Positions 9,026-40,557 of a stretch of 64,000 bases of DNA are shown piece by piece; position 1 is the stretch's first letter; each line of letters opens with the position of its first letter. Location: the NCBI RefSeq assembly GCF_018283455.1, contig NZ_JAAMTH010000001.1, positions 3,391,501 to 3,455,500 of the forward strand, given 5' to 3'. The position numbers were made by a program, and so were the translations under genes. Source of the stretch: Planococcus sp. MSAK28401. Its GTDB lineage: Bacteria; Bacillota; Bacilli; Bacillales_A; Planococcaceae. The notes under the pieces were generated by a model, which ran no database searches, was not told where the DNA came from, and saw only the letters and a program-made list of their open reading frames with translations.

Positions 9026-9059
9026 TAAAAGCGCTGCCTCTCGAGGCGGTGCTTTTTCA
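9026..9059 (+). terminator. Terminator after the diguanylate cyclase gene
   Basis: Hairpin with arms GCGCTGCCTC and GAGGCGGTGC followed by TTTTT. A near-identical copy (two base differences over 34) lies at 9295-9328 on the other side of the repeat element. Confidence 0.8.
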
Positions 9060-9063
9060 CAGT

Positions 9064-9294
9064 GTTGAAGAAGTCTATAATTTGCTATAGATCAAAAAGG
9101 AAATCACATTTTCTACAATTAAAAATCAATGTTCTCTCTAAGTATTTGGAGAAGCGTTCGCTCGACTCCGGTGGATCAGCGAGACGACCGAGACCCCGCA
9201 AGACGCGCAGCGGATGAGGAGGCTTGGGCGCGAGCCCACGGAAAGCGAGCGATAAGCTTCGGAAAATACGGCTTCATACTTTCTCAACAAGCTG
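9064..9294 (+). repeat. Dispersed intergenic repeat, copy 1 (about 230 bp)
   Basis: A non-coding element also found at 20462-20693 and 26824-27115. It begins TTGAAGAAGTCTA, has an A/T-rich arm ending in AAAATCAATG, then TAAGTATTTG and a GC-rich core starting at GCGTTCGCTCGACTCC and ending with CCCACGGAAAGCGAGCG, then ATAAGCTTCGGAAAATACG. The core ends can pair (CGCTCG with CGAGCG, CC with GG, GTGG with CCAC). The outer ends form a poor inverted repeat (TTGAAGAAG against TTGAGAAAG), as in degenerate MITEs. Here it lies between two near-identical terminators. Open frames inside it are not supported. Confidence 0.85.
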
Positions 9295-9328
9295 TAAAAG
9301 CGCTGCCTCTTGAGGCAGTGCTTTTTCA
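9295..9328 (+). terminator. Second, near-identical terminator after repeat copy 1
   Basis: Hairpin GCGCTGCCTC / GAGGCAGTGC with TTTTT; it duplicates the terminator at 9026-9059 and borders the repeat exactly. Confidence 0.75.
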
Positions 9329-9438
9329 AGTGCCGTATATTGGACGGCACGCCCGGGGTCTGCTACGGTTGATAGTGGCAAAAGCCGAAGATGTATTATA
9401 TATAGCGCTGCTACTGTGCTTTCGAAGGAGTCTTTCAT

Positions 9439-10629
9439 TTGAGTAACAACAAACCTAAATTATGGACACGGGACTTTATCGGCGTTTCCGTTGTCCATTT
9501 CCTGCTACTGCTCGTTTTTTATTTATTGATTGTCACGATCGCTTTATACGCCGTCGAAGAATACGGTGCTTCGACCAGTGAAGCCGGCCTCGTCACTGGG
9601 ATTTTCATCTTGGGGGCATTAGCGGGGCGCTTAGTTATTGGCCGCACACTCGATATGATCGGCCGAAAACGCGCCTTGGTGCTCGGTTCTGCCTTGTTTG
9701 TCGGCATGACTGCGCTGTATTTCCTGCCGCTCGGTTTGCCCTTCCTGATGCTGAACCGCTTCTTGCATGGCGTGACGCTCGGAGTTGCGAGCACCGCTGC
9801 CGGCACGATCGCCGCACAAGTCATTCCCCACACGCGTAAAGGCGAAGGCATCGGCTATTTCAGCATGAGTGCTACGCTTGGGGCAGCTTTCGGGCCGTTT
9901 ATCGGCTTGATGATGAGCCAATGGACTGGCTATAATGTGATTTTTGCTGCCTGTGTGGCGATTGCCTTGTCTGCCTTGGCGCTCAGCACTTTTGTGAAAG
10001 TGCCGCCGCTGGAGAAACCGCCTGCAGAAGAAGCGAAATCCGGCTTCCAGCTTTCTAATTATTTAGAAGCGAATGCTGTGCCGATCGCCATTGTCATGTT
10101 CCTGATAGCGCTCAGCTATTCGAGCGTTCTGTCGTTCATTAATTTTTACGCCAACGATAAAGGGCTAGTGGAAGCGGCGAGTTTCTTCTTCCTGGTATAC
10201 GCTGTCGTAATCTTGCTGACACGCCCTTTCACCGGACGTATCATGGATTTGTATGGCGCCAATTACATTATGTATCCAGCGCTCGTGTCGCTCGCGACCG
10301 GCCTGTTGCTGCTGAGTGTCGCTGATTCGAGCCTGGGGCTGTTGTTTGCGGGCGCTTTGATCGGTCTTGGGTTCGGCAATATGCAATCGACGACGCAAGC
10401 GGTCGCCATCAAACTGACGCCTCCCCACCGCATGGGGCTTGCCACGTCGACGTTCTTTGTCGCGATGGACGGCGGGCTCGGCATGGGGCCGTATATCCTC
10501 GGCTTCATCATCCCGTTCACCGGCTACAGCGCGCTTTACGGCTTATTGGGAATCGCCGTATTCGCGTTGATCGTGCCGTACTATTTCTTACACGGAAAAA
10601 AAGAACGCAAGCTCGCTTCAGCGCATTGA
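9439..10629 (+). CDS. Major facilitator superfamily transporter
   Basis: A 396-residue carrier with about 12 membrane segments. The loop 2-3 signature appears as GRLVIGRTLDMIGRKRAL near residue 58, and LTRPFTGRIMDLYGANYI in the second half repeats it. The TTG start at 9439 follows GAAGGAG at good spacing. The family resembles drug or small-metabolite efflux proteins of Bacillales, but no substrate can be assigned. A bidirectional terminator separates it from the convergent cupin gene. Confidence 0.88.
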   Translation: MSNNKPKLWTRDFIGVSVVHFLLLLVFYLLIVTIALYAVEEYGASTSEAGLVTGIFILGALAGRLVIGRTLDMIGRKRALVLGSALFVGMTALYFLPLGLPFLMLNRFLHGVTLGVASTAAGTIAAQVIPHTRKGEGIGYFSMSATLGAAFGPFIGLMMSQWTGYNVIFAACVAIALSALALSTFVKVPPLEKPPAEEAKSGFQLSNYLEANAVPIAIVMFLIALSYSSVLSFINFYANDKGLVEAASFFFLVYAVVILLTRPFTGRIMDLYGANYIMYPALVSLATGLLLLSVADSSLGLLFAGALIGLGFGNMQSTTQAVAIKLTPPHRMGLATSTFFVAMDGGLGMGPYILGFIIPFTGYSALYGLLGIAVFALIVPYYFLHGKKERKLASAH

Positions 10630-10644
10630 ACGGATTTAATAGAA

Positions 10645-10680
10645 AAGAACGGCCGACAAGTCATGTCGGCCGTTCTTTAT
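10645..10680. terminator. Bidirectional terminator between MFS and cupin genes
   Basis: Perfect stem GAACGGCCGAC / GTCGGCCGTTC with T runs on both strands, between convergent genes. Confidence 0.85.
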
Positions 10681-10686
10681 TTTCAC

Positions 10687-11103
10687 TTATTCTTCCTCTT
10701 CTGCTGCGTCCGCTTCCGCTTTTGTTTCATGCACAGTGCTGTGCGGATGTTCTGGCGGTGCGTAGATGGAATAGATTTTCAGCGGCTTATCGCCTGTATT
10801 GGTGACGTTGTGCCATTTGCCTGCGGGGATGAGGATGGCGTAATCGTCTTCCGCTTTTTCTTCAAAGCTTAAGTTGTCTTCGCTGTCGCCCATCTGTACA
10901 AGGCCTTCTCCTTCTTCAATGCGAAGGAATTGGTCGCCGTGTTCGTGGACTTCTAGCCCGATGTCATCGCCTGCTGCGATGCTCATCAATGTGACTTGCA
11001 AGTTTTTCCCGGTCCAAAGAGCGGTCCGGAACGTATCGTTTTGTTTTGTCGCATCTTCGATATTGACGACAAATGATTCAGCACCATAATCTTTTAATTC
11101 CAT
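10687..11103 (-). CDS. Cupin domain protein
   Basis: A 138-residue single cupin. The metal-binding motif 1 is GLEVHEHGDQFLRIEEGEG (about residues 49-67; two His and a Gln/Glu) and motif 2 is IPAGKWHNVTNTGD (about 92-105). The C terminus is acidic (EADAAEEEE). The ATG at 11103 follows GGAGGAGGAA. Small cupins of this type are isomerases, dioxygenases or sugar-binding proteins; no activity can be chosen here. Confidence 0.85.
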   Translation of the reverse strand: MELKDYGAESFVVNIEDATKQNDTFRTALWTGKNLQVTLMSIAAGDDIGLEVHEHGDQFLRIEEGEGLVQMGDSEDNLSFEEKAEDDYAILIPAGKWHNVTNTGDKPLKIYSIYAPPEHPHSTVHETKAEADAAEEEE

Positions 11104-11178
11104 GTGTGGTTCCTCCTCCGGTTTATTGTTCTGTCCTGCTCTTCTCTACCCTGGGAAAAGCGGACATAAACAAACCAC

Positions 11179-12228
11179 TCAGCGCAAGGCTTGTTTTTTC
11201 AGCGCCTGGTTGCGGGAGTTGAACACATCATTATGGGAAGACACCATGGCAATATTGGCAGCGTCCGGCTCGATGAACTTTTTCGCTTTATTAACGGCAT
11301 TGGCGGCGTCAGTGAACGTGCCGGCGATCAAATTGAGCTTGCCGTCGTGCTGGAGAATGTCGCCTGCCGCAAACACTCCCGGTACGGAAGTTTCACTTGC
11401 CGGCGTGCCTTGCAAATAGAACTCGTCTTTTGTTTCCAGATCGAGTGGGCTGTTTTCAAGTAAGCTCGCATCGCGCTCATAGCCGTGGTTGATGACGAGC
11501 TGGTCGACCGGCAGCATGCACCGTTCGCCCGTCACTTGGTTCATCACTTCCACCAACTCGACACGGTCGCCTGCATCCGATGCCACGAGCCGCGTAATAG
11601 CGGAATCCAGTAAGCATTCGGCGCGGCTTTCAAGCAATTGGCGCACTTGCGCTTCGTGCCCGGCCATTTCGGATTTGCGGTGGACGACATAGACTTTTTC
11701 GGCAATCGGCTCGAGCTCGTTTGCCCAGTCGACTGCCGAATTGCCGCCTCCTGAAATGAGCACCGTACTGCCGCGGAAACGTTCAAGTGTTTTCACGGTA
11801 TAATTGAGATTCGCTACTTCAAAGCGTTCGGCCCCTTCGATTTGCAGCTTCTGCGGCTTCAAGATGCCTCCGCCGACTGCGACGATGACCGATTTCGAGT
11901 AATGGATTTCACCCGACGCGCCTGCCAATACAAACAAGCCGTCTTCGTTCTTATTCATGCTTTCCACTTTCTCATCCAAGCATACTGTCGGATCGAAAGT
12001 GAGCCCTTGTTCGACCAATTGAGTGATCAGCTGTTCGCAGCGGATCGGCGTCTGTCCCCCGACGTCCCAGATCATTTTTTCCGGATAGACATGAAGCTTG
12101 CCGCCAAGGCGCGGCTGGAACTCGATAATTTTTGTTTTCATGCCCCGAAGCCCGCTGTAGAAAGCTGAATACAAGCCGGCGGGACCTCCCCCGATGATGG
12201 TTACGTCAAAGATGTCGTGATTGGCCAT
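11179..12228 (-). CDS. Ferredoxin/flavodoxin-NADP+ reductase type 2 (thioredoxin reductase-like)
   Basis: A 349-residue FAD/NADPH flavoprotein of the YumC/YcgT type. The FAD loop is IIGGGPAGLYSAFYSG at the N terminus, the NADP loop STVLISGGGNSAVDWANEL around residue 155, and FAAGDI near 295 is the second FAD contact. There is no CxxC redox pair, which separates it from true thioredoxin reductase. The ATG at 12228 follows GGGGATGG; a start three codons earlier has no spaced ribosome site. A divergent siderophore operon and Fur-like boxes upstream suggest a role in supplying electrons for iron reduction or release. Confidence 0.88.
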   Translation of the reverse strand: MANHDIFDVTIIGGGPAGLYSAFYSGLRGMKTKIIEFQPRLGGKLHVYPEKMIWDVGGQTPIRCEQLITQLVEQGLTFDPTVCLDEKVESMNKNEDGLFVLAGASGEIHYSKSVIVAVGGGILKPQKLQIEGAERFEVANLNYTVKTLERFRGSTVLISGGGNSAVDWANELEPIAEKVYVVHRKSEMAGHEAQVRQLLESRAECLLDSAITRLVASDAGDRVELVEVMNQVTGERCMLPVDQLVINHGYERDASLLENSPLDLETKDEFYLQGTPASETSVPGVFAAGDILQHDGKLNLIAGTFTDAANAVNKAKKFIEPDAANIAMVSSHNDVFNSRNQALKKQALR

Positions 12229-12260
12229 TTTTTCCATCCCCGTTCTATAGTAAATTCCGA

Positions 12261-12289
12261 TTGACAACGATTCTCAATAACTTTATAGT
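12261..12289 (+). promoter_or_regulatory. Promoter of the siderophore ABC operon
   Basis: TTGACA at 12261-12266, 17-base spacer, TATAGT at 12284-12289. A Fur-like box overlaps the -35 and spacer. Confidence 0.75.
12262..12276. promoter_or_regulatory. Fur box 1
   Basis: Read on the minus strand, TGAGAATCGTTGTCA is close to the 7-1-7 Fur consensus TGATAATNATTATCA. It lies between the divergent reductase and siderophore-uptake genes and overlaps the plus-strand promoter. Confidence 0.8.
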
Positions 12290-12306
12290 ATACATTGTAA
12301 TGAAAG

Positions 12307-12321
12307 TGAGAATCATTATCA
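12307..12321. promoter_or_regulatory. Fur box 2
   Basis: TGAGAATCATTATCA differs from the 7-1-7 Fur consensus at one position. It lies just downstream of the predicted start of the ABC operon transcript. Confidence 0.85.
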
Positions 12322-12384
12322 ACATATATCCTATTTTTATTTTTTGGCATCAAAATTTCGATTTAAGGAAAAGGAGGGCTGTCG

Positions 12385-13176
12385 ATGGGACGCCTTTTTA
12401 CAGAAAACCTGGAAGTCAGCTATGGCGAAAGGAAAATCGTCAAAGGCTTGTCCCTGTCGATTCCAGATAAACAGATCACGGCGATCATCGGGCCGAACGG
12501 CTGCGGGAAATCGACTTTTTTGAAAGCGATGACACGCGTCATTCCGCACGAATCGGGCTCTGTCATTCTCGACGGCCAGCAAATCGCCGAAGAAAAAACA
12601 AAGCAATTGGCGAAAAAGCTCGCCATCTTGCCGCAGTCGCCGGAAAATGCCGCCGGTTTGACCGTCGGCGAGATTGTCTCTTACGGCCGTTTCCCCTATC
12701 AAAAGGGATTCGGCAAGCTCAGCAAACGGGATTATGAAATGATCGACTGGGCGCTCAATGTGACCGGTACGCAATTTTTCAAATACCATCCCGTTGATGC
12801 CTTATCGGGCGGCCAGCGCCAACGTGTCTGGATTGCCATGGCACTGGCGCAGGAGACGGAAATGATTTTCCTTGATGAACCGACCACATACCTCGATATG
12901 GCCCATCAATTGGAGATCCTGGAACTGCTCCGCGAACTCAACGCCGAGGAAGAACGCACCATCGTTATGGTGCTGCACGATTTGAACCACGCTGCCCGCT
13001 TCGCCGACCATATCGTCGCGATGAAAGACGGCCAGATCATCAAGGCCGGATCGCCTGAAGAAGTCATTGTTCCGGATGTCCTTCGCGAAGTTTTCCGCAT
13101 CGATGCGGAAATTGGCCTTGACCCACGAACACAAAAACCGATTTGCCTAACATATAATTTAATTAAAGGAGCTTAA
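12385..13176 (+). CDS. Iron-siderophore ABC transporter ATP-binding protein
   Basis: A 263-residue FecE/YusV-type ATPase that powers siderophore import. Walker A is GPNGCGKST (about residue 37), the ABC signature LSGGQRQRVWIAMALAQ (about 138), Walker B MIFLDEPTTYLD and the switch His in VLHDLNHA. The ATG at 12385 follows AAGGAGGG. First gene of a four-gene plus-strand operon behind two Fur-like boxes. Confidence 0.93.
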   Translation: MGRLFTENLEVSYGERKIVKGLSLSIPDKQITAIIGPNGCGKSTFLKAMTRVIPHESGSVILDGQQIAEEKTKQLAKKLAILPQSPENAAGLTVGEIVSYGRFPYQKGFGKLSKRDYEMIDWALNVTGTQFFKYHPVDALSGGQRQRVWIAMALAQETEMIFLDEPTTYLDMAHQLEILELLRELNAEEERTIVMVLHDLNHAARFADHIVAMKDGQIIKAGSPEEVIVPDVLREVFRIDAEIGLDPRTQKPICLTYNLIKGA

Positions 13177-13183
13177 CCAGATC

Positions 13184-14113
13184 ATGAAAAAATTACTTAT
13201 CTTATCCATCGCTTTACTCTTTATGCTGGCGCTTGCCGCTTGCGGTTCTACAGAAGAAACGACAGAGGAAACGAGTGGTTCGGAAGGCGAAGCAAGCGGA
13301 TCCGATACCATCCAATACGAATCTGAAAATGGTACAGTGGAAGTTCCGGCTGACCCACAGCGCGTGGTAGCCTTGGCTTACGGCGGAAACGTCATGGCAC
13401 TTGATGTACCGCTTGCCGGCATCGACGCTTGGGCGATCGACAATCCGAACTACGAACCATACTTGGACGGCGTAGAAGAAGTGTCGGAAGAGAACTTGGA
13501 GAAAATCATCGAATTGGATCCGGATTTGATTATCGGTTACTCGACTCTTCAAAACGTCGATAAACTGGAACAAATTGCACCAACTGTGACTTACACTTAC
13601 GGCAAAGTCGACTATTTGACACAACACCTGGAAATTGGGAAACTATTGAATAAAGAAGACGAAGCACAAGCATTCGTTGACGACTTTAAAGAACGCGCAC
13701 AAGCTGCGGGCGAAGAGATCAAAGCGGAGATTGGCGAAGATGCAACGGTATCCGTCATCGAGAACTTTGATAAGCAATTGTACGTATACGGCGACAACTG
13801 GGGCCGCGGCACCGAGATCCTCTATCAGGAGATGGGCTTGAACATGCCGGAAAAAGTTGAAGAAATGGCTCTTACTGATGGGTACTATGCCTTGTCACAA
13901 GAAGTCCTCCCTGAATATATGGGCGATTACGTAATCTTCAGCAAAGACTCCGAACAGGATAATTCATTCCAGGAAACGGACCTTTACCAAAACACGCCAG
14001 CTGTAAAGAACGACCAAGTATTTGAAGCGGATGCGAAGAAATTGTACTTCAACGATCCGATTTCACTCGATTACCAGCTTGAGTTGTTCCAGGAAAAATT
14101 CCTTGGCCAATAA
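13184..14113 (+). CDS. Iron-siderophore substrate-binding lipoprotein
   Basis: A 309-residue class III binding protein anchored outside the membrane by a lipid on Cys (lipobox LAAC at residues 17-20, after a hydrophobic signal). An acidic/Ser linker follows, then PADPQRVVALAYGGN and NLEKIIELDPDLIIG, as in YfiY/FecB-like proteins for hydroxamate or citrate siderophores. It follows the ATPase gene by seven bases. A close paralogue lies alone at 52570-53502. A terminator-like hairpin separates it from the permease genes, which would keep binding-protein mRNA in excess. Confidence 0.92.
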   Translation: MKKLLILSIALLFMLALAACGSTEETTEETSGSEGEASGSDTIQYESENGTVEVPADPQRVVALAYGGNVMALDVPLAGIDAWAIDNPNYEPYLDGVEEVSEENLEKIIELDPDLIIGYSTLQNVDKLEQIAPTVTYTYGKVDYLTQHLEIGKLLNKEDEAQAFVDDFKERAQAAGEEIKAEIGEDATVSVIENFDKQLYVYGDNWGRGTEILYQEMGLNMPEKVEEMALTDGYYALSQEVLPEYMGDYVIFSKDSEQDNSFQETDLYQNTPAVKNDQVFEADAKKLYFNDPISLDYQLELFQEKFLGQ

Positions 14114-14117
14114 ACAC

Positions 14118-14150
14118 AAAAGGGATTCTGCGCAGCGGAATCCCTTTATC
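14118..14150 (+). terminator. Intra-operon terminator-like hairpin
   Basis: AAAGGGATTC / GAATCCCTTT with a short loop, between the binding-protein and permease genes. The T tract is weak (TTTATCC), so partial read-through into the permeases is likely. Confidence 0.65.
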
Positions 14151-14175
14151 CTTTCTATAGAAAAGATGATGATGC

Positions 14176-15174
14176 ATGCGTTATAACGCCCGTTTTTCAT
14201 ACATATTTGGAATCAGCCTGCTGGCACTTGTGCTGGCTTTTGTTTTGTCGATGGTCTTTGGGGCTGCTGATGTCAGCCTGAAAAACCTATGGCTGGCGCT
14301 GTTTTCCGACAACACCGGACAACAGATTTCGGTCATCCAGGAAATTCGCCTGCCGCGTGAAGTCGCTGCGATTTTCGTCGGCGCGGCACTCGCCGTCTCA
14401 GGAGCGATCATGCAAGGCATGACCCGCAACCCGCTGGCAGACCCTGGTTTGCTCGGTTTGACTGCCGGAGCCAATGCGGCACTGGCCGCGACATTGGCAT
14501 TTATTCCCGGAGCTAATTATTTCGGCATCATGATTGCCTGCTTTATCGGGGCGGCCATCGGGGCCGGGCTCGTCTTCGGCATCGGGGCTTCGCGTCGCGG
14601 CGGTTTTTCGCCATTTCGCATCGTCCTTGCCGGAGCGGCGGTATCGGCATTTTTGACCGCCATTGCAGAAGCGATCGGCTTGCTGTTTAAGATTTCCAAA
14701 GACGTCTCCATGTGGACCGCCGGCGGCTTGATCGGCACGTCTTGGGGACAGCTGCAGATTATCATTCCGTTTATCACCATCGCTTTGTTTGTCGCTTTAT
14801 TGCTATCCCGCCAACTGGCAGTGTTGAGCTTAAGTGAAGAAGCGGCGATCGGGCTTGGCCAAAAGACCGGCCAGATCAAAGCAATGCTGTTTGTCGTCGT
14901 CACCTTGCTTGCCGGCGCTGCAGTAGCGTTAGCCGGCAACTTGGCGTTCATCGGCTTGATGATCCCACATATCGTCCGTGTGATCGTCGGCAGCGATTAC
15001 CGCTTCATCATTCCGATGTCCGCCGTCACGGGCGCCATCTTCATGCTGCTCGCCGATTTGTTCGGACGCACGGTCAACGCACCATTTGAAACGCCGGTCG
15101 CAGCGGTGGTCGCCATGCTCGGCTTGCCATTCTTCCTGCTCATCGTCCGTAAAGGTGGAGGTGCGTTCACATGA
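14176..15174 (+). CDS. FecCD-type siderophore permease, subunit 1
   Basis: A 332-residue membrane subunit with about ten helices. Family motifs are LPREVAAIFVGAALAVSGAIMQGMTRNPLADPGLLG (in two stretches near residue 60-90) and the ATPase-contact loop GLGQKTGQ followed by GNLAFIGLMIPHIVR. The ATG at 14176 has only a weak ribosome site. It overlaps the next gene by four bases (ATGA), so the two permeases are coupled and should form the heterodimeric channel. Confidence 0.92.
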   Translation: MRYNARFSYIFGISLLALVLAFVLSMVFGAADVSLKNLWLALFSDNTGQQISVIQEIRLPREVAAIFVGAALAVSGAIMQGMTRNPLADPGLLGLTAGANAALAATLAFIPGANYFGIMIACFIGAAIGAGLVFGIGASRRGGFSPFRIVLAGAAVSAFLTAIAEAIGLLFKISKDVSMWTAGGLIGTSWGQLQIIIPFITIALFVALLLSRQLAVLSLSEEAAIGLGQKTGQIKAMLFVVVTLLAGAAVALAGNLAFIGLMIPHIVRVIVGSDYRFIIPMSAVTGAIFMLLADLFGRTVNAPFETPVAAVVAMLGLPFFLLIVRKGGGAFT

Positions 15175-16178
15175 TCCAACAACATTTAATCCGTAAACAG
15201 CGCATCACTTTGCTCGTGCTCACCATCATCCTGTTGGTCACCGCCGTCTTGAGTTTAGGGCTCGGCTATTCGACGCTCGGTTTCGGCAGAATTGTGCCCG
15301 TTTTGATGGGGCAAGGCGATTTCAAAGAAGAGTTCGTACTGTATTCCATCCGGATGCCAAGACTGCTCATTACGTTTCTAGCGGGGATGGCACTCGCTTT
15401 ATCGGGCGCAGTGCTACAGAGCATTACGCGCAATGATTTGGCCGACCCGGGCATCATCGGCATCAATTCCGGTGCCGGTGTCGCCATTGCCATTTTCTTT
15501 TTGTTCATCCCTGTAGAGCCGGGCTCTTTTGCTTTCTTGATGCCGTTCGTCGCGTTTCTCGGCGCGTTTATCACGGCGATCCTGATTTACTTGTTCTCCC
15601 GCGATCCGCGTACAGGCCTTCAACCGGTCCGCCTCGTACTCGTCGGCATTGGTTTTTCAATGGCTTTATCCGGCGTCATGATTGTGCTGATTTCATCGGC
15701 TGAACGGGAAAAAGTGGACTTCATTGCCCAGTGGCTCGCAGGTTCCATTTGGGGCACCGACTGGCCGTTCATCCTGGCACTGTTGCCTTGGCTTGTCGTG
15801 TTGATTCCATATGTTCTGTATAAAGCGAACCGGCTGAACATCCTCGGGCTTGGCGAATCCGCCGCAATCGGTCTCGGGCTTAATATCGGCAAAGAACGCG
15901 CCGTCCTTTTGCTTGCGGCCGTCGCGCTCGCTGCCGCTGCGGTTTCTGTCACCGGGAGCATCGCTTTTATCGGCTTGATGGCCCCGCACCTCGCGAAAGC
16001 GCTTGTCGGGCCGCGCCATCAATTGTTCCTGCCCGTCGCCATCCTGCTCGGCGGCTGGCTGCTGCTTGCAGCTGACACAATCGGCCGCAACCTGCTTGAA
16101 CCGTCGGGCATTCCGGCTGGTGTCATGGCAGCATTGATCGGCGCACCGTATTTTGTTTATTTATTAATGAAGAAATAA
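15171..16178 (+). CDS. FecCD-type siderophore permease, subunit 2
   Basis: A 335-residue partner permease with RMPRLLITFLAGMALALSG, NDLADPGIIGINSGAG, the coupling loop AIGLGLNIGKERA and SIAFIGLMAPHLAK. The ATG at 15171 follows GGTGGAGG and overlaps the stop of the first permease gene. Together with the upstream ATPase and lipoprotein it completes the importer. In B. subtilis the similar pair YfiZ-YfhA works with YfiY and the YusV ATPase for schizokinen-type siderophores; the substrate here is inferred only to be a ferric siderophore. Confidence 0.92.
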   Translation: MIQQHLIRKQRITLLVLTIILLVTAVLSLGLGYSTLGFGRIVPVLMGQGDFKEEFVLYSIRMPRLLITFLAGMALALSGAVLQSITRNDLADPGIIGINSGAGVAIAIFFLFIPVEPGSFAFLMPFVAFLGAFITAILIYLFSRDPRTGLQPVRLVLVGIGFSMALSGVMIVLISSAEREKVDFIAQWLAGSIWGTDWPFILALLPWLVVLIPYVLYKANRLNILGLGESAAIGLGLNIGKERAVLLLAAVALAAAAVSVTGSIAFIGLMAPHLAKALVGPRHQLFLPVAILLGGWLLLAADTIGRNLLEPSGIPAGVMAALIGAPYFVYLLMKK

Positions 16179-16219
16179 AAAACGGCTCATGTCCCCGAAA
16201 AAGGGAGATGAGCCGTTTT
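16177..16219. terminator. Bidirectional terminator between siderophore permease and nhaC
   Basis: Perfect stem AAAACGGCTCAT / ATGAGCCGTTTT between convergent genes. Confidence 0.85.
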
Positions 16220-16226
16220 GCTGTTG

Positions 16227-17696: not shown

Positions 17697-17894
17697 GTCC
17701 TCAAACCCCTTTGTGAAAATGGAATGAATGCTTGTATTTATTTTGCCACTATACTGATTTCAATGCCATATAAACTTTCAGATTAAACCGATTTTTCGGA
17801 ATTCGGAATAGTTCAAAGCAGGATTCTCCTCAGCCCGCCCCGAAGTGTAACCTTATTGCCTAAGCTTCCGGCATCTTGTTGTGGAAAGGGGAAG

Positions 17895-18437: not shown

Positions 18438-18544
18438 TGAAGATGTTTTAAAAACAAATGAGCGTGACCGTCTCCCTTTTGGGGAAAGAAGAAATGAGGC
18501 CGCCTCGCACTTATGGCCATCCCGGAAGGAGCTGCCGTCTTGCG

Positions 18545-19891: not shown

Positions 19892-19957
19892 ACAGTGTTT
19901 TTTTGAGCTGTTTTCTTTATTCCGAGTAATCAACTATGTATAATAAGGAGAAACTTT

Positions 19958-19981
19958 ATGCAAGTATATTCTCCTGCCTAA
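19958..19981 (+). other. Possible 7-codon upstream ORF in the DUF4395 gene leader
   Basis: ATG at 19958 follows AAGGAG at ideal spacing and encodes MQVYSPA before a stop. A small hairpin (CGGCT/AGCCG) follows, then the ribosome site of the main gene. It may be translated, but there is no proof of a regulatory role. Confidence 0.25.
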
Positions 19982-20031
19982 ACGGCTTGTTTCAGAGCCG
20001 CTCGGCCATAAAAAACTCGGAGGGATTCACT

Positions 20032-20445
20032 ATGACCATTCCTAAACCGCTCGTCCAGCTCAATCAAGCCTTTCTTGTCGCCACGGTATTAGCAGGTCTC
20101 ATCGTTCATCCGCTGATCCTGCTCGTGCCTTTCGCCATTGGAACCGTCACCTTGATCACCAAGAAAAACCCGCTGATCGCATTCGGCCGCCGCTTTTTGC
20201 CGAATCCCCCTAACAGTTATCTGCAGGAAGACCGCGACCAGCAATTGTTCAACCAATGGATCGCCACTGTCTGTCTCGGGCTTGCCCTCTTGTTTTTCGC
20301 AACAGGCCTGCCGATTGTTGCCACCGTCTTTGGCGCTATGGTCATTGTCGCAGCCGGCGTTGCGCTCATGGGCTATTGCATCGGCTGCACCGTCCGCTAT
20401 CAGCTGATGATGTGGAAACACCGCCGGACAAAAACGGATTATTGA
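20032..20445 (+). CDS. DUF4395 membrane protein
   Basis: A 137-residue protein with four hydrophobic segments and the family hallmark GYCIGCTVRYQLMMW near the C terminus; the CIGC pair resembles a redox CxxC. It begins IPKPLVQLNQAFLV. The ATG at 20032 follows GGAGGG; in-frame codons further upstream have no similarity. DUF4395 proteins often occur near thioredoxin-like or rhodanese genes; none is present here. Function unknown. Confidence 0.82.
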   Translation: MTIPKPLVQLNQAFLVATVLAGLIVHPLILLVPFAIGTVTLITKKNPLIAFGRRFLPNPPNSYLQEDRDQQLFNQWIATVCLGLALLFFATGLPIVATVFGAMVIVAAGVALMGYCIGCTVRYQLMMWKHRRTKTDY

Positions 20446-20461
20446 TCGCTTTTTATAGAGT

Positions 20462-20693
20462 TTTGAAGAAGTCTAGTGACCACTAAAAATTAAAATGGAA
20501 ATTACTTTTTCTACATTTAAAAATCAATGTTCTCTCTAAGTATTTGGAGAAGCGTTCGCTCGACTCCTGTGGGACTAGCGGGTTTGAGAGACCCCGCAGG
20601 GAGCATAGCGAACGAGGAGGCTCGATTCCCGCCCCACGGAAAGCGAGCGATAAGCTTCGGAAAATACGATTTTCTACTTTTCTCGACAAACTG
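20462..20693 (+). repeat. Dispersed intergenic repeat, copy 2
   Basis: Same element and orientation as copy 1. It shares TTGAAGAAGTCTA at the left end, the stretch from TCAATGTTCTCTCTAAG through GCGTTCGCTCGACTCC almost base for base, and GAGCGATAAGCTTCGGAAAATACGA at the right end in two blocks. The centre differs from the other copies (GGGACTAGCGGGTTTGAG in place of GGATCAGCGAGACGACC). It lies between convergent genes and abuts the proA terminator; no second terminator is seen on its left side. Confidence 0.85.
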
Positions 20694-20694
20694 T

Positions 20695-20727
20695 AAAAAA
20701 GCGGAGACCGCAGTCTCCGCTTTTTTT
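20695..20727 (-). terminator. Terminator of proBA
   Basis: Perfect stem GCGGAGAC / GTCTCCGC with A/T runs on both sides, overlapping the proA stop codon. Confidence 0.85.
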
Positions 20728-22003
20728 ATTTTGTTTGGCCGTTGCCTTTAATGATGTATTTCGTTGAAGTCAGTGCCGGCAAGCCCATCGGCCCACGCGC
20801 GTGGAGCTTTTGCGTGCTGATGCCGATTTCGGCGCCGAAGCCGAATTCAAAGCCGTCCGTGAAGCGCGTCGATGCGTTATGATAAACCGCTGCTGCATCC
20901 ACTTCCGTGAAGAATTGCTGGACGCTTTCCGCATGTTCCGAAATGATCGCCTCGGAATGCTTCGTGCCATACTGGTTGATATGCTTGACCACTTCATCCA
21001 CGCTTCCTACCGTTTTCAGTGCGAGTTCATAAGCCAAGTATTCAGTGCCCCAATCGGCTTCTTCCGCCGGGATGATGCCGCTGCCTGATTGCTGCGCCTT
21101 TTCATCGCCGTGGATTTTCACCTCTTTTGCCTGAAGCGCTGAAATCAGTTCCGGCAGATGCTGCTCAGCCCATTTCTCGTGGACGAGGATGGTTTCGCAG
21201 GAGTTGCAGACCGATGGACGCTGTGTTTTCGCGTTCAACGCGATATCGATGGCCATGTCCTTGTCCGCCGTCTCGTCGATATAGACGTGGCAATTGCCTG
21301 CGCCGGTTTCAAGTACCGGCACTGTAGAATTCTGGACGACCGTCTTGATTAAGTTGGCGCCGCCACGCGGAATCAACACATCCAAATAATCGTTCAGCTT
21401 GAACATGGCAGATGCCGCTTCCCGGCTCGTATCTTCAAGTAATTGCACGGAATCCACCGGCAAATCGCTTTGTTCAAGTGCGCGGTGAATGACCGAAACG
21501 ATGGCGGTGTTCGAGTAGATCGCTGTCGAACTGCCACGCAGGACAACGGCATTGCCGGTTTTCAAGCAAAGGCTCGACGCATCTACCGTGACGTTCGGGC
21601 GGGCTTCGTAAATCATGCCCACCACGCCAAGCGGTACGCGTACTTTCGTCATATCGAGGCCGTTCGGCTGCTGCCAATGCTCGAGCACTTCACCGACCGG
21701 ATCGGTGAGTTTGGTCAATTGGATCAGCGCATCCGCCATATCCGCCAAGCGCCCTTCATCAAGCTTGAGACGGTCGACGAGCGATTCGCTCATGCCGTTT
21801 GCGCGCCCCGCTTCAATATCTTTCAGGTTTTCTTTTAGAATGAAAGCTTTTTCAGCCATTAGCTGCTGAGAGATGAGTTCTAATGCTTTATTTTTCAGGG
21901 TGGTGTCGGCTTTTGCGAGTTCTCCCGCTGCCGCTTTCGCTTTTTTCGCTTTCTGTACCAGTTCTGTCTCCAAAGTTGCTTCCTTTTGAAGAACTTCTGT
22001 CAT
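20726..22003 (-). CDS. proA: Glutamate-5-semialdehyde dehydrogenase (gamma-glutamyl phosphate reductase)
   Basis: A 425-residue ProA that reduces gamma-glutamyl phosphate with NADPH, the second step of proline synthesis. The catalytic Cys lies in [16 protein letters not shown] (about residue 263), and [32 protein letters not shown] and [18 protein letters not shown] are family blocks. The ATG at 22003 follows AAAGGAG. It lies 29 bases downstream of proB, in one operon. Confidence 0.95.
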
Positions 22004-22032
22004 CCAATCTTCTCCTTTCGAATTTCCGTACC

Positions 22033-22803
22033 TTACGCTAATTCTTTAACGGGTTTTGCAATATATGTCCCATCGCCGTTTCCGTTCATGATCTCAACCA
22101 ATTTTCCACTGCCTTCTCCTGTGCCGATAAATACATCGACGCCGAAGTTATGGGCTGTTTTCGCGGCTTCCACTTTCGTCTTCATGCCGCCTGTCCCAAC
22201 ATCCGATCCAGCACCGGATGCGGCTTCCATCAACTCATCAGGAATATCCTTCAGATGGGTATATCGTTCAGCCGATGGATTGGTCTTCGGATTATCTGCG
22301 TAAATGCCGTTGATGTCCGTCAAAATGATCAATTGATCAGCACGGACAAGCCCGCTGACAAGGGCCGATAGCATATCGTTGTCGCCGAAAGTCAATTCCT
22401 CAACCGCTACCGAATCGTTTTCGTTGATGACCGGCATCATGCCGCGCTCCAATAATTTCGAAATGGTGTCGTCCGCTTTTTGGTACAAGTCTTTCGTTAA
22501 CAATAATTGGGCGGAGACGATATCGAAGTTTTTGAATTCTGTCGCGTACGCTTGTGCGAGCAGGCTTTGCCCGACGGCTGCCGCCGATTGTTTGTCGACT
22601 ACTGTATCCGGGCGCGATAAATACCCCATGCTTGTGCATCCGGCTGCAACTGCGCCAGATGAGATCAAGATGACGTCATGGCCTTCTTCTTTCAAACGGG
22701 CCAACGCCCCGACGTGTTCGCGCAACTTGGTGATGGACAATTTACCGTGGCTGTCCGTCAATGAGCTGCTTCCTATTTTCACTACTATTCTTTTCTTTTC
22801 CAT
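22033..22803 (-). CDS. proB: Glutamate 5-kinase, short form without PUA domain
   Basis: A 256-residue amino acid kinase that phosphorylates glutamate for proline synthesis. It opens [13 protein letters not shown] and contains [43 protein letters not shown] and [23 protein letters not shown]. subtilis ProB carries an extra C-terminal PUA domain of about 100 residues; this protein stops after the kinase fold. The ATG at 22803 follows GGTGGTGA; a GTG five codons earlier is less well placed. A good promoter lies about 130 bases upstream. Confidence 0.93.
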
Positions 22804-22928
22804 TGTTACAGTCACCACCCGATTTTGATTATTTAATGAGCTCTCCCATTACGATCAAAAGCGGAAGAACCCGGTCTCCGTAAAACGCTTTACAATGGCT
22901 GACTTAGTGTCGTCTGATAATAAGAATT

Positions 22929-22957
22929 ATTATGCAATTAAATGCATTTTAAGTCAA
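22929..22957 (-). promoter_or_regulatory. Sigma-A promoter of proBA
   Basis: On the minus strand TTGACT (22952-22957), a 17-base spacer, then CATAAT (22929-22934). The roughly 115-base leader shows no T-box. Confidence 0.7.
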
Positions 22958-23051
22958 CTATTAATTTCATAAATACTTATATAACGGTTATCGAAACAAT
23001 AAAACTTGCATATTTATGAATATTTATTCAAAATGCATGTTTCATTATAAA

Positions 23052-23222
23052 TCATTTCCAGTTCCGGAGATGGCGGATGCGTATTCTTCGCCGGCCGTGA
23101 ATTCCAACCGGCAGCTGATCGCCTGCAACACGCCAGTCACAAGTGGCAAGTGTAACATAACCAGAGGGTATTTCAAGTTCAGGGAGGGGATTTCGCCTTA
23201 TGTAAGGGCTTTCATTTTGTAT
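23052..23222 (+). other. Unassigned GC-richer structured block between proBA and the HAAS gene
   Basis: In an otherwise AT-rich 525 bp gap this block holds a hairpin GCCGG/CCGGC at 23090-23112, an imperfect GCCA/TGGC stem at about 23131-23149 and a terminal stem CCTTA/TAAGG at 23196-23207 followed by TTTCATTTT. It has a weak TATAAA upstream. It could be a small RNA or a decayed leader; I cannot match it to a family. Confidence 0.25.
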
Positions 23223-23256
23223 ATAAAGTAGGTATAAAGTATTATTTAGGAATCAA

Positions 23257-23288
23257 CAAAAGCCCATACCACAAGGGATACGGGCAAA
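23257..23288 (-). terminator. Terminator of the HAAS-domain gene
   Basis: On the minus strand GCCCGTATCC pairs imperfectly with GGTATGGGC and is followed by TTTTG. Confidence 0.6.
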
Positions 23289-23328
23289 ACGCGCACAAGT
23301 GTTGCTATTTCATTCTAAAGTACCACAT

Positions 23329-24366
23329 TCAATGCGGCGGCGTTTCCACTGGCTGGCGCCGCTTGCCCGCTCGCCGATACCCTTGAATAACATCACTTAA
23401 AGTCCCGAAGATCATCATTACCAAGATAGCGCTAAAAATCCAGGTCAGGGCATTGGTTCCGCCGAATGTCTCGGTGAGGAATTGGCGAAATTCCGGATTG
23501 AGCAATTGAGAATTGGTGAAGATTAAGATGAATACGAGCACGGAAACCGTTTGCACCGCAGCGTTGAATGTGGCCAGTCGATAATTCCAATAGCCTGCGC
23601 GCCATTGCCAGATGGCAAGCGACAATTCCAGCACGATGACGAGTGCAATGAATGGCCAATAGGACACCAGCACATCTTGGTTGAATACCGCCATTTGAAA
23701 GCGCAAGCCTTCCCCATCGTCAGTGTAAATGCCGAGCACTTTATCGGCATTGAAATAGACCGTTGTCCAGATGACCATCCAAATCAAGCTGCCGAAGACC
23801 TGGCTTTTCGCCACTTTCGCTTCGACCGGCTCGAGCAGCGCCTCCTGCCCTCCCCATTCTTTCAAGTCATCAGGCGTCCATTCTTCCATTGTTAGCCCAA
23901 GCGGCGTCTCTACGCCCGATTTATCCGCCCAGTCCATCACGGCAACGACGAGTGTGACCCAGAACAAAGTCTGCATAATGGTATTGAAAATCGCGCCGAT
24001 GATATTGCCAATCAATGAAACGAGCACCGAGACGAGTGTCTCGTCCTGACCGACTCCCGAAATAATTCCGACGATGGTCACGACGATGAGCGTAATCAGG
24101 ACAGCCAGCGGAATAACCAGCCGCAGCAAGCGGACGTACAAGTCGAAATAGCGCGGGCCAATCAAGTAACGCCTCACTTTGCCGTAATGCTCCGCCATCA
24201 GTGCTGGATGGCCGAATTCCTGAAGGACGGCCCGTTCTTCGCTTTCGCTACTGTCTGCCGTGAGCCGTTCAGACAATTTGCTTCTCAGGTCCTTTTCCGC
24301 TTCCTGCCGTTTGTCTTGCGGCAGCCGTTCGAGCACTTGCCGGATGTACCGTTCACTTAGCTTCAT
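23329..24366 (-). CDS. Multispanning membrane protein with N-terminal HAAS-like domain
   Basis: A 345-residue protein. The first 80 residues (LSERYIRQVLERLPQDKRQEAEKDLRSKL, then LQEFGHPALMAEHYGKV) match the helical HAAS/DUF1700-type domain found in Bacillales membrane and PadR-linked proteins. About seven membrane segments follow. A conserved acidic stretch LGLTMEEWTPDDLKEWGG lies between segments 2 and 3. The ATG at 24366 follows AAAGGAGA; a GTG two codons earlier is too near the ribosome site. No PadR gene is adjacent. Function unknown. Confidence 0.7.
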   Translation of the reverse strand: MKLSERYIRQVLERLPQDKRQEAEKDLRSKLSERLTADSSESEERAVLQEFGHPALMAEHYGKVRRYLIGPRYFDLYVRLLRLVIPLAVLITLIVVTIVGIISGVGQDETLVSVLVSLIGNIIGAIFNTIMQTLFWVTLVVAVMDWADKSGVETPLGLTMEEWTPDDLKEWGGQEALLEPVEAKVAKSQVFGSLIWMVIWTTVYFNADKVLGIYTDDGEGLRFQMAVFNQDVLVSYWPFIALVIVLELSLAIWQWRAGYWNYRLATFNAAVQTVSVLVFILIFTNSQLLNPEFRQFLTETFGGTNALTWIFSAILVMMIFGTLSDVIQGYRRAGKRRQPVETPPH

Positions 24367-24487
24367 GACCACATCTCCTTTTGGGTCAGCCTGTTATTAG
24401 CTCTATCATGAAGGATTTTTCTGGAAAACACAATATAATAATCTAATTATTCAGATAACTAGTTATTTTCGATTGTTGTGCCTATGG

Positions 24488-24521
24488 CAAAATCCGGCTG
24501 TCGAATCATCAACAGCCGGAT
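24488..24521 (-). terminator. Terminator of the phosphatase-lipoprotein operon
   Basis: Perfect 10 bp stem ATCCGGCTGT / ACAGCCGGAT followed on the minus strand by TTTTG. Confidence 0.85.
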
Positions 24522-24551
24522 CTCCATTTCTTCTATAGAAAACACTTTTCA

Positions 24552-25187
24552 TCAATTGAGCTTGATGGTGATGGTTTGTGCGGGTGCAAGCAGCTCTCCG
24601 TCCGCAGCAAATAGCTTGCTGGTGGTCAATTTAATCTCCTGCGCCCCACCTTTCACAATAAAGCCGACATTCCCTGATTTTACTTCTCCAGGTTTCAGCC
24701 CTTCATTCAACGACTCCAAATACACATCGTCTTCCCAAGTCTTCACTTCGCCGCTTTCTGTCTCAATCAATGCGACCGGCGCAAAATTCACTTTTTCACT
24801 CGCGCCATTGTTGATTTCAACAAAGAACTTTGCCAGCTCGAACTCCTGGTCATGCGTGTAGGAATGGTAAAAATCGATTAGGCTATAATCCGGCGTGTAA
24901 TGCAGCAGCTTCGTTTCGTGGATGGTCAGCTCGATATCGCCAATCTGCATCGTCTGAGGCTCCATATTGGCCGCCAATAGCTCCAATCCGCCTTTCACAT
25001 CACGTACTTGCTGGCCAGGCTCCTGCAACCGGCGGTCATCGCTCACTTGCGGGCTGAGGACATATTGTTCCGTGTACGCGGGCGCTTCCGCTAAAGACGC
25101 CGCAGTTGCCGTGCCTTGCGCTGTCTCGTTCTGGCAGCCCCATAATAATGCCAAAGGGACGAGCAGCCACGCTAATCTCGCTTTCAT
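24552..25187 (-). CDS. Secreted lipoprotein with an immunoglobulin-like (DUF4352-like) domain
   Basis: A 211-residue lipoprotein: signal WLLVPLALLWGC with the lipid Cys at residue 18, then a beta-rich domain containing IELTIHETKLLHYT, ELAKFFVEINNGASEKVNFAPVAL and LKPGEVKSGNVGFIVKGG, which resembles the DUF4352 fold of extracellular proteins. The ATG at 25187 follows CAGGGAG. It begins 22 bases after the alkaline phosphatase gene with no terminator between, so it is probably co-expressed under phosphate starvation. Role unknown. Confidence 0.7.
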   Translation of the reverse strand: MKARLAWLLVPLALLWGCQNETAQGTATAASLAEAPAYTEQYVLSPQVSDDRRLQEPGQQVRDVKGGLELLAANMEPQTMQIGDIELTIHETKLLHYTPDYSLIDFYHSYTHDQEFELAKFFVEINNGASEKVNFAPVALIETESGEVKTWEDDVYLESLNEGLKPGEVKSGNVGFIVKGGAQEIKLTTSKLFAADGELLAPAQTITIKLN

Positions 25188-25209
25188 CCAATCCGCTCCC
25201 TGCTATCGT

Positions 25210-26652
25210 TTATTGTTTATCATCGATCGTTACGTCCGCGCCCATCAAGTCGAAGATGATGCCGGCATGATCTGTATTGTCCAGTTGACCCGCAAATTTC
25301 TGGCTAGCTGGCCCATAAGCATAGACCGGCACGTCTTCTCCGGTATGGCCGCCAGTTGTCCAGCCGGTGTGCGAACGCTTATCGAAAATGCGCTCGATGG
25401 CGTTATCGATGTCCAAGTATTCGCCTTCGTCCGCTGCTTTTTTGACAGAAGCGATTTCTTCTTCAGTCAAGTCCAAGTCAATATAGCGTTCCAAGGTTTC
25501 CTCTACGCCAGCACCTTCCGTAATCTCAGAAGCCATGAAATCCGGTGTCCGCTGTGCAGCGAGAATTGGCTCGGCGAACCAATTATAGACGCCGTCTGCA
25601 CCGATTGAGAAGCCGCCTGTCGAGTGGTCGGCTGTCGCCACGACCAATGTGTTTTCATCTTGCTTGGCGAATTCGATCGCTGCCTGGAATGCACGGTCGT
25701 AATCCTCCATTTCACTCATCGCTGCGACGATATCGTTGTCATGTCCTGCCCAGTCGACTTGGCTGCCTTCAACCATCAAGAAGAACCCGTCCTCGTCCTG
25801 CTTCAAGCGGTCGATCGCAGAGCGTGTCATGTCTTCAAGAGACGGCACGCTGTCCTCGCGGTCGATCATTTTCGGCAATCCGCCTTGTGCGAACAGGCCG
25901 AGCACTTGCCCGTTGTCATTTGCGAGCAGCTCTTCTTTCGATGTCACATAGCCGTAGCCTGACTCCTGGAATTCTTCCGTCAAATCGCGGTCCGTGCGGT
26001 CGAACAGTTTGGTGCCCCCGCCGAGCAAGACGTCGATTTTATGTTCGCCATCGATGCGCTCGTCGAAATAATCATCGGCGATGGCGTTCATATTGCGGCG
26101 GCTGATATCGTGCGCGCCGAATGATGCCGGTGTCGCGTGGGTGATTTCGGAACTCGCCACAAGCCCGGTCGCTTTGCCTTGTTCTTTCGCCGCTTCAAGT
26201 ACGGTTTTCACTTCCGATTCGTCGTTGTCGACCGCGATGGCATTGTTATAGGTTTTGATGCCTGCTGCCATGGCAGTGGCGGCCGAGGCTGAATCGGTGA
26301 CATTTTGATGCGCATCTTCCGGATAGGTCATTTGCTGTCCGACCAAATAAGAATCGAAAGACATTTCATCCGCGAAGCGCGCAGAAGAATCATCCTGCAA
26401 ATAACGGTAAGCGGATGTATAGGATGTGCCTACGCCGTCGCCGATCAGGAAAATGATGTTTTTCGGGGCGTCTTTCTCTTTATCCTTATCTTTATCTTTG
26501 CCTTTTCCTTTTCCAGGGTTTTTGTGTTCTTTATGTACTTCGGCTTTGCCATTCCCGTGCGCTTCAGCTGGCGCGGACTGGGTAAAACTCGTCACAGCAA
26601 CCGCTGCCACTACGGCGGCTGGAACAAGTTTCTTCATTGATTTTCGGATCAT
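25210..26652 (-). CDS. Secreted alkaline phosphatase
   Basis: A 480-residue phosphomonoesterase. An export signal (MKKLVPAAVVAAVAVTSF...AEA) is followed by a very lysine/aspartate-rich linker (repeats of GK and DK, about residues 45-60). The catalytic domain has FLIGDGVG for the first zinc site, the phosphorylated Ser in NVTDSASAATAMAAG, VEGSQVDWAGHDND, ATADHSTGG and the late His in HTGEDVPVYAYG. It frees phosphate from organic esters outside the cell. The ATG at 26652 follows GAGGAGGA. A four-hexamer Pho box lies upstream. Confidence 0.92.
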   Translation of the reverse strand: MIRKSMKKLVPAAVVAAVAVTSFTQSAPAEAHGNGKAEVHKEHKNPGKGKGKDKDKDKEKDAPKNIIFLIGDGVGTSYTSAYRYLQDDSSARFADEMSFDSYLVGQQMTYPEDAHQNVTDSASAATAMAAGIKTYNNAIAVDNDESEVKTVLEAAKEQGKATGLVASSEITHATPASFGAHDISRRNMNAIADDYFDERIDGEHKIDVLLGGGTKLFDRTDRDLTEEFQESGYGYVTSKEELLANDNGQVLGLFAQGGLPKMIDREDSVPSLEDMTRSAIDRLKQDEDGFFLMVEGSQVDWAGHDNDIVAAMSEMEDYDRAFQAAIEFAKQDENTLVVATADHSTGGFSIGADGVYNWFAEPILAAQRTPDFMASEITEGAGVEETLERYIDLDLTEEEIASVKKAADEGEYLDIDNAIERIFDKRSHTGWTTGGHTGEDVPVYAYGPASQKFAGQLDNTDHAGIIFDLMGADVTIDDKQ

Positions 26653-26701
26653 CTGGCATTCCTCCTCGTGTTTGTTAACCATCGCCAGTGTAGCGGAGGA
26701 A

Positions 26702-26740
26702 TATTAAGGAATTGTTGAGTGCGTGTATGGAATTTGTTAA
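26702..26740 (-). promoter_or_regulatory. PhoP (Pho box) array upstream of the alkaline phosphatase
   Basis: On the minus strand four hexamers TTAACA, CATACA, TCAACA and TTAATA start exactly 11 bases apart (left edges 26735, 26724, 26713, 26702). The B. subtilis PhoP target is a set of TT(A/T/C)ACA repeats with this spacing. A plausible -10 (TACACT, 26688-26693) follows, and the array is 50-90 bases before the start codon. Confidence 0.8.
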
Positions 26741-26749
26741 AGGAATCCT

Positions 26750-26763
26750 ATTTCCCGGGAAAT
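26750..26763. promoter_or_regulatory. Noc-type nucleoid-occlusion binding site
   Basis: ATTTCCCGGGAAAT, a perfect palindrome (16 bases with the flanking T and A), equals the Noc binding sequence reported for B. subtilis. It is intergenic, next to the Pho box. No noc gene is in the window, so presence of Noc in this organism is assumed. Confidence 0.7.
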
Positions 26764-26786
26764 AGTTTCGGGGATATTTCCAAATT

Positions 26787-26820
26787 AAAAACCGGCCTCA
26801 TTTAGGAGACCGGTTTTCAG
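26787..26820 (-). terminator. Terminator-like hairpin beyond repeat copy 3
   Basis: AACCGG...CCGGTT stem with A/T runs. It closely resembles the RND-gene terminator at 27117-27150 and brackets the repeat together with it. Confidence 0.6.
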
Positions 26821-26823
26821 GAC

Positions 26824-27115
26824 GTTGAAGAAGTCTATTAATACACTATAAATAATAAAGAAATCATCTTTTTATAAAAAATCAATGACCTATCTAAGTA
26901 TTTGTAGAAGCGTTTGCTCGACTCCAGTGGATCAGCGAGACGACCGAGACCCCGCAAGGCGCAAGGCGACTGAGGAGGCTTGGGCGCGAGCCCACGGAAA
27001 GCGAGACGACCGAGACCCCGCAAGGCGCAAGGCGACTGAGGAGGCTTGGGCGCGAGCCCACGGAAAGCGAGCAATAAGCTTCGGAAAATACGACTACTTT
27101 AATTTCTCTCCAATC
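26824..27115 (+). repeat. Dispersed intergenic repeat, copy 3, with internal 66 bp duplication
   Basis: Same element as copies 1 and 2, starting TTGAAGAAGTCTATTA and ending with AAGCTTCGGAAAATACGACT. It is closest to copy 1 in the core (GGATCAGCGAGACGACCGAG, GAGGAGGCTTGGGCGCGAGC). Units 26935-27000 and 27001-27066 are a perfect 66 bp tandem duplication; without it the length would be about 226 bp, as in the other copies. It is bracketed by two similar terminators. Confidence 0.85.
26935..27066. repeat. Perfect 66 bp tandem direct repeat (2 units)
   Basis: Both units run from GCGAGACGACC to CCCACGGAAA with no mismatch, followed by a partial third start (GCGAG). The unit is the GC-rich core of the dispersed repeat. 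Confidence 0.95.
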
Positions 27116-27116
27116 T

Positions 27117-27150
27117 AAAAACCGGCCCCCATTAAGGAAGCCGGTTGTGT
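27117..27150 (-). terminator. Terminator of the RND transporter gene
   Basis: On the minus strand AACCGGC pairs with GCCGGTT and is followed by a T run. Confidence 0.75.
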
Positions 27151-40441: not shown

Positions 40442-40557
40442 AAAAAACACCCCGCATAAATGCGGGATGTATCGATAGCTGCGGCGTATCAGGCCACGCT
40501 CCACAACGTGTTCCATAAAGGAATGCCTGTCCGTCTTATGCAGCTTAGCTCATCGCG
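40442..40557 (-). ncRNA. Candidate small RNA gene, about 116 nt
   Basis: A consensus minus-strand promoter (TTGACA at 40587-40592, 17 bases, TATTGT at 40564-40569) is followed by about 116 bases without an ORF and a perfect terminator CCCGCAT/ATGCGGG with six T (end near 40442). The middle can fold: AGCTGC with GCAGCT, CAGGC with GCCTG, and inner hairpins TTCC/GGAA and CACG/CGTG. Downstream on this strand lies only the insertion sequence, so it does not lead a gene. I cannot match it to a named family. Confidence 0.55.

Follow-up and report, generated by a model that had tools for sequence, protein, structure and literature searches.

The 64,000-nucleotide stretch of contig NZ_JAAMTH010000001.1 from Planococcus sp. 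MSAK28401 that we have analysed (positions 3,391,501 to 3,455,500, the window in what follows) carries three copies of a short dispersed element, which we come to read as a miniature inverted-repeat transposable element (MITE) of the insertion sequence (IS) family IS1182. An initial annotation, made from the letters of the window, had described three copies with common ends and a GC-rich foldable core, of which copies 1 and 3 each lie between near-identical hairpins that differ in sequence from one locus to the other while copy 2 adjoins one terminator. All of these features are present in the window sequence, with the hairpin pair reading AAAAGCGCTGCCTC around copy 1 and AAAAACCGG around copy 3, and with a full hairpin solely on the right of copy 2. 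The limits in Table 1 are a little wider than those proposed initially, as the consensus tips read CAGAGTGTTGAAG... and ...CTCGACAGCCTG; the left limit of copy 3 is approximate, and the tandem duplication in its core, as read from the sequence, amounts to ∼66 bp at 26934-27065.

Insertion at terminators and duplication of the target

The element inserts at intrinsic-terminator hairpins and the whole unit of A-tract, hairpin and T-tract is duplicated, a copy starting out between two terminators. Duplication of the local terminator upon insertion had been suspected from the window; in order to establish what the sites look like when empty we scanned 40 members of the genus for the gene to the right of each window copy and read the closest relatives. 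At the site of copy 1 the element is absent from 9 of 11 close relatives, leaving a single hairpin, with the remaining two sites either occupied, with another IS on the left (G024), or rearranged (G063). The site of copy 2 is empty in 8/11, again with a single hairpin, and differs in G063; G009 has an element with another core version whose left hairpin is likewise missing, and G023 retains both full hairpins around what is apparently the same insertion, as judged from the same left tip. The left hairpin of copy 2 was thus lost after insertion, since G023 still has both, and its loss could be explained by deletion between CGCTTT repeats. At the third site 6/9 close relatives are empty, also with one hairpin, G024 carries an element flanked by two hairpins, and in G021 and G026 an element stands reversed at the same terminator, with one hairpin. 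The suspected duplication is therefore supported by single-hairpin empty sites for all three copies, and both hairpins were not found waiting at the empty sites; occupied and empty sites among relatives report on past insertion only.

Table 1. Positions of the element copies, their cores and the associated terminators in the window
Feature	Position	Strand	Basis
Left terminator hairpin, copy 1	9027..9057	+	AAAAGCGCTGCCTC hairpin; window sequence, flank alignment, one-hairpin empty sites
Copy 1, IS1182-type MITE	9058..9294	+	Window sequence, BLAST in own genome, flank comparison
Core of copy 1, long interrupted hairpin	9148..9266	+	Folding; covariation on 35 related cores
Right terminator hairpin, copy 1	9296..9326	+	AAAAGCGCTGCCTC hairpin; duplicate of left, two stem/loop differences
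Probable remnant of lost left terminator, copy 2	20448..20455	+	G023: same insertion, two full hairpins
Copy 2 of MITE, other core version	20456..20693	+	Window sequence, flank comparison
Core of copy 2	20546..20664	+	Folding, core alignment
Right terminator, copy 2	20695..20727	+	Window sequence; single hairpin at 8/11 relatives' sites
Left terminator hairpin, copy 3	26787..26817	+	AAAAACCGG hairpin; window sequence, flank alignment
Copy 3 of MITE, core lengthened by tandem duplication	26818..27116	+	Window sequence
Right terminator hairpin, copy 3	27117..27146	+	AAAAACCGG hairpin; single hairpin at 6/9 relatives' sites

A BLAST search of the own genome with copy 1 returned 59 pieces that were merged by hand into 40 places, a lower bound given that scoring covered 40 of 55 first-look candidates; the family thus occupies at least 40 places, and close relatives also carry members. 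Tip-to-tip lengths are mostly 227-306 bp, and many of the copies, when printed with their flanks, show the same hairpin on both sides, with a sequence that is specific to the locus. Both ends could be recognised in 29/40 places, with 18 of the 29 reaching a score of at least 17 in flank alignments, and the mean score is 19.3 for the two flanks of the same copy vs 7.8 for flanks of different copies. With a further 40 places taken from close relatives (G004, G009, G019, G021) the set grows to 68 both-ended copies, 31 from the own genome and 37 from the relatives, of which 46 have a terminator pair (flank score ≥17; 18/31 and 28/37, respectively), as compared to 26 of 4556 mismatched pairs. By a stricter hairpin test, a strong hairpin is present on each side of 28 of the 46 paired copies, on a single side of 14 and on neither side of 4, and none of 272 control stretches has one. 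Terminator pairs at copies elsewhere, whose absence would have spoken against the initial proposal, are thus common. Open frames of at least 60 codons converge on the element from both sides in 36/46 paired and 16/22 unpaired copies, raw counts on which we place no weight.

The extent of the duplication could be measured for 35 of the 46 pairs, those aligning ungapped at ≥85% identity. The repeat, made up of A-tract, stem-loop and T-tract, is 17-37 bp long (mean 32.2, sd 3.7) and is centred to within 1.5 nt on the hairpin dyad in 33/35 cases; L032 is a half hairpin and the dyad spans of L033 and L252 are overshoots of the method. Among 37 ungapped pairs there are 2 compensated double changes between the paired hairpins vs 0.28 expected, an excess reached in 65 of 2000 simulations and too weak to rely on. 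In the terminator duplicates of L013 and L011 (and by eye in those of L236 and L239) a stem pair has changed on both of its sides (A-T vs C-G etc.), and in L251, from relative G021, the loops of the two terminator copies, CACATGATTGTG and CACAATCATGTG, are mutually reverse complementary, as if one hairpin had been flipped.

A partner IS and the IS1182 family

There are eight PF13751 matches in the own genome. One of the elements concerned, the IS at L062, has tips CAGGCTGTCGAGAAA and GTTTCTCAACACTCTG, which are those of the element (consensus CAGGTTGTCGAGAAA for the right tip, reversed, and CAGAGTGTTGAAGAA), and a single terminator stands in two copies around it, forming an exact 36 bp repeat. 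This IS directly adjoins element copy L024, in the order terminator-IS-terminator-element-terminator, and its leader carries the core, placed and oriented as in the element. The two frames of its transposase score 206 and 246.6 bits against the NCBIfam IS1182 model NF033551, each short of a cut-off of 270 bits that is set for the whole protein; an intact relative transposase scores 479.8 bits, and the L062 frames match PF05598 or PF13751 over cut-off. Given that tips and core are shared with this IS, the element, which keeps both tips and the GC-rich core in ∼235 bp and lacks the transposase gene, is best read as the IS minus its transposase gene, that is as a MITE-like, non-autonomous member of the IS1182 family (NF033551; PF05598, PF13751). 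It resembles the family in its tips, its neighbouring partner IS and its hairpin target and differs from it in having no transposase gene. The initial suggestion of a non-autonomous mobile element that uses terminators as targets is supported by this family assignment, by the partner IS and by the one-hairpin empty sites. The transposase of the partner IS is written in two overlapping frames, offset by -1 (L062:461-1878, L064, L065), with an A-AAA-AAG heptamer just 5' of the stop of the first frame in L062 and L064, a layout more suggestive of programmed frameshifting than of a broken gene. Hairpin-containing direct repeats were found in 6 (including L063, the same IS) of 21 other testable IS1182-like loci from this and related genomes, with hairpins judged partly by eye.

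Whole-hairpin duplication extends past the genus to many full-length IS1182 relatives. Named genomes were scanned with an IS1182 transposase alignment and the best 80 of 468 loci were retained, of which 73 were examined, seven partial matches (L284, L287-L291, L303) being left out. A direct repeat of at least 15 bp surrounds the IS in 47/73 loci and in 46 cases the repeat is a hairpin, as compared to 0/69 in a control with shifted positions. These 46 repeats span 16-42 bp, with repeat and hairpin agreeing to within 2 nt in 42 of them, and they are found in 22/31 proteobacterial and 24/42 other loci, Firmicutes and Proteobacteria being covered; six derive from one strain, Bacillus sp. OV166. 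Flanks are terminator-like in most cases, T-rich on the 3' side in 36 of the 46 and A-rich on the 5' side in 33.

A second IS1182 subfamily in the same genome, with seven copies (L055-L061), behaves differently. No direct repeat longer than 7 nt is found between its 60-nt flanks; these form short inverted repeats, for example AAAAAGCT-IS-AGCTTTTT (flanks in L333-L345). The number of complementary edge bases totals 30 vs 8.3 for shuffled partners, a value reached in 7 of 5000 shuffles. At element copies L020 and L026 one side is taken by another IS, and two of the seven copies are found there in place of one terminator. With flank repeats that are inverted and not direct, this subfamily seems to replace hairpins, and the outcome appears to be the stem-loop replacement published for IS1272. 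The leader at L055:141-209 (minus strand) has a below-threshold likeness to the small RNA (sRNA) families Ref64 and Spy392987.

In PMC4923244 and PMC5678879, which cite Siguier 2015, some IS1182 members are described as targeting palindromes, and the targets of two members, IS1272 and TnSha1, as intrinsic terminators or other stem-loops without a sequence consensus. The element is like IS1272 in having a stem-loop target and in its right tip, CTCAACAAGCTG in copy 1 vs CTCAACGAGCTG, with one base different. It is unlike IS1272 in what becomes of the target: both papers have IS1272 deleting or replacing the stem-loop, without duplication, whereas the element duplicates it and so falls outside replacement of the IS1272 type.

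The folded core

The core folds as one long interrupted hairpin, with z scores of -2.3 (copy 1) and -3.2 (copy 2) when treated as RNA. The initial annotation had called for a search for compensatory changes, and we have carried this out on an alignment of 35 related cores, hand-picked for diversity from 88 pattern matches after chance matches and near duplicates were dropped, using a structure of 33 pairs set by hand from single-sequence folds. Paired cells account for 91.5% of the total in this register and at most 37.7% when the structure is slid. Both-side changes occur at 11/33 pairs, with 33 such cells vs 10.5 in shuffles; a second measure, the number of further pair types, is no higher than in shuffles (reached by 80/500), and the apical pairs are weak. 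Unaided, RNAalifold finds 27 pairs, 7 of them with both-side changes. When the wobble count is restricted to 27 of the 33 pairs, leaving out six apical ones, the element strand has 37 G-T combinations (8 pairs) vs 3 A-C (3 pairs), although a single pair accounts for 20 of the 37 and the aligned rows are related; this bias suggests that one strand of the core is constrained.

The core is also found in some other Bacillaceae IS1182 loci (L256, L259, L322, L327-L332), where it is directed outward and faces the nearest tip; three more hits to the loose core pattern look like chance. Its central part is like tsr24 (RF02577), an S. aureus sRNA, in sequence and fold, and the cores of the IS leaders resemble it in the same orientation. 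The scores, 17.6 bits for copy 1 and 31.3 and 30.9 bits for IS leaders, are below the gathering score of 50, and the flanks and ends of tsr24 are unmatched. In a scan of the window no Rfam RNA family exceeds threshold at the element; the pan motif (598-685) and BsrF (40447-40556), both on the minus strand, are the only families that reach their gathering scores. Group IIC introns also settle at intrinsic terminators, by RNA-based retrohoming. The element differs from them in that the window holds no match to an Rfam intron RNA. Some cores (L025, L027, L034, L036, L039, L040, L044 and others) contain one or two extra modules with inverted repeats of their own (GTAACCCCTTCTGCTCAATAATG..., AATGAATGAGCGAAG...), at fixed places, and repeats that share part of the core and have other ends are seen at L047 (C1:2582355-2582444), L048 (C1:1652831-1652916) and L045.

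Hairpin targeting in general does not depend on the core, since L066 and L084, judged partly by eye, duplicate hairpins without it. It may serve as a cis-acting structure, as a guard against read-in transcription or as an RNA. If it were a functional RNA directed toward the right end, the terminator target would supply the RNA with its 3' end and the right hairpin would be under selection. The both-side changes, the excess of G-T over A-C on the element strand and the tsr24 likeness of the leader cores are consistent with such an RNA, as is the distribution of hairpins at copies where one is left, since 16 of 17 unduplicated one-hairpin copies keep the one on the right. That count was, however, taken before merging sites common to several genomes (e.g. 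L025, L229, L235), and at the third site in G021 and G026, where the element is reversed, the sole hairpin is on the left of the element itself. A conserved promoter consensus was looked for in the left arm of the element and not found, and the level of further pair types and the core-free duplications at L066 and L084 argue against an RNA as well. We regard a functional RNA as unlikely, and its extension, by which the element settles on terminators since the host terminator ends its own core RNA, duplication leaving one for the host and the right hairpin being selected, as less likely still.

Mechanism and significance

We consider it very probable that the element is a non-autonomous IS1182 derivative, targeted to hairpins and duplicating them, presumably through a transposase acting in trans and with nearly neutral insertion. 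The transposase would recognise the extruded hairpin or cruciform and not a sequence, on each of the two strands a 3' end of the element would be joined to the 5' foot of the hairpin, and gap repair would then copy the hairpin, which would therefore set the length of the duplication. Such steps have been drawn before. In the model of PMC5678879 the stem-loop is replaced when the DDE ends are joined to a cruciform at its 3' feet, and joining to the 5' feet (pathway b) would lead to its duplication; pathway b is given there as hypothetical (Fig. 13 legend) and, in the parts consulted, without an example. The outcome at the element and at the 46 named IS loci resembles this pathway b; a search of one open-access library gave no reported example of it, nor any description of the element or of whole-hairpin duplication by IS1182.

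A number of observations do not sit easily with such a mechanism. A pair is absent in 22 of the 68 both-ended copies, for which the strict test gives a hairpin on the right only in 16, on the left only in 1 and on neither side in 5, and several of the 46 pairs are half hairpins or diverged (L032, L039, L033). The bias toward the right-end hairpin among single-hairpin copies (e.g. L025, L034, L044, L248) is an observation in its own right. No hairpin repeat surrounds the IS in 27 of the 73 named loci, and the two ends of the IS in G013 (L064) carry hairpins that differ from each other. In the 35 measurable pairs repeat length follows hairpin span moderately (Spearman 0.45, p 0.006; Pearson 0.32, p 0.064), and the Pearson value of 0.90 in the named IS set was obtained with the span searched inside the repeat. 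Finally, pairing in the target is 0.80-0.91 inside the repeat, 0.63 at its outermost base, 0.72 just outside and ∼0.4-0.5 farther away, so that the repeat edge is near, and not sharply at, the hairpin foot.

As an alternative, a transposase dimer could read the terminator as an ordinary double-stranded palindrome and cut symmetrically about the dyad with flexible spacing, without extrusion. Centring on the dyad is equally expected in this case and the lengths in the own genus do cluster near 32 bp, but repeats of 16-42 bp that track hairpin span in 42/46 loci would need a very flexible dimer, and the inverted loops of L251 hint that the hairpin can extrude, possibly after insertion; we hold this explanation to be improbable, if deserving of some weight. 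Insertion between two terminators already in tandem, an arrangement that exists at some genes, is contradicted by the single-hairpin empty sites in 9/11, 8/11 and 6/9 close relatives and by the match of the two hairpins to each other locus by locus, and is scarcely credible.

Hairpin-directed duplication by an IS1182 transposase, the reading we favour, would be nearly neutral because neighbouring genes keep a terminator, and the regenerated hairpin offers a simple reason for dozens of copies. The duplications made by most insertion sequences are a few bases long and of fixed length. Here the length of the duplication follows the structure of the target, which makes structure-dependent transposition directly testable, and the presence in one genome of two IS1182 subfamilies, one duplicating and the other apparently replacing hairpins, provides a natural comparison of two outcomes of strand transfer.

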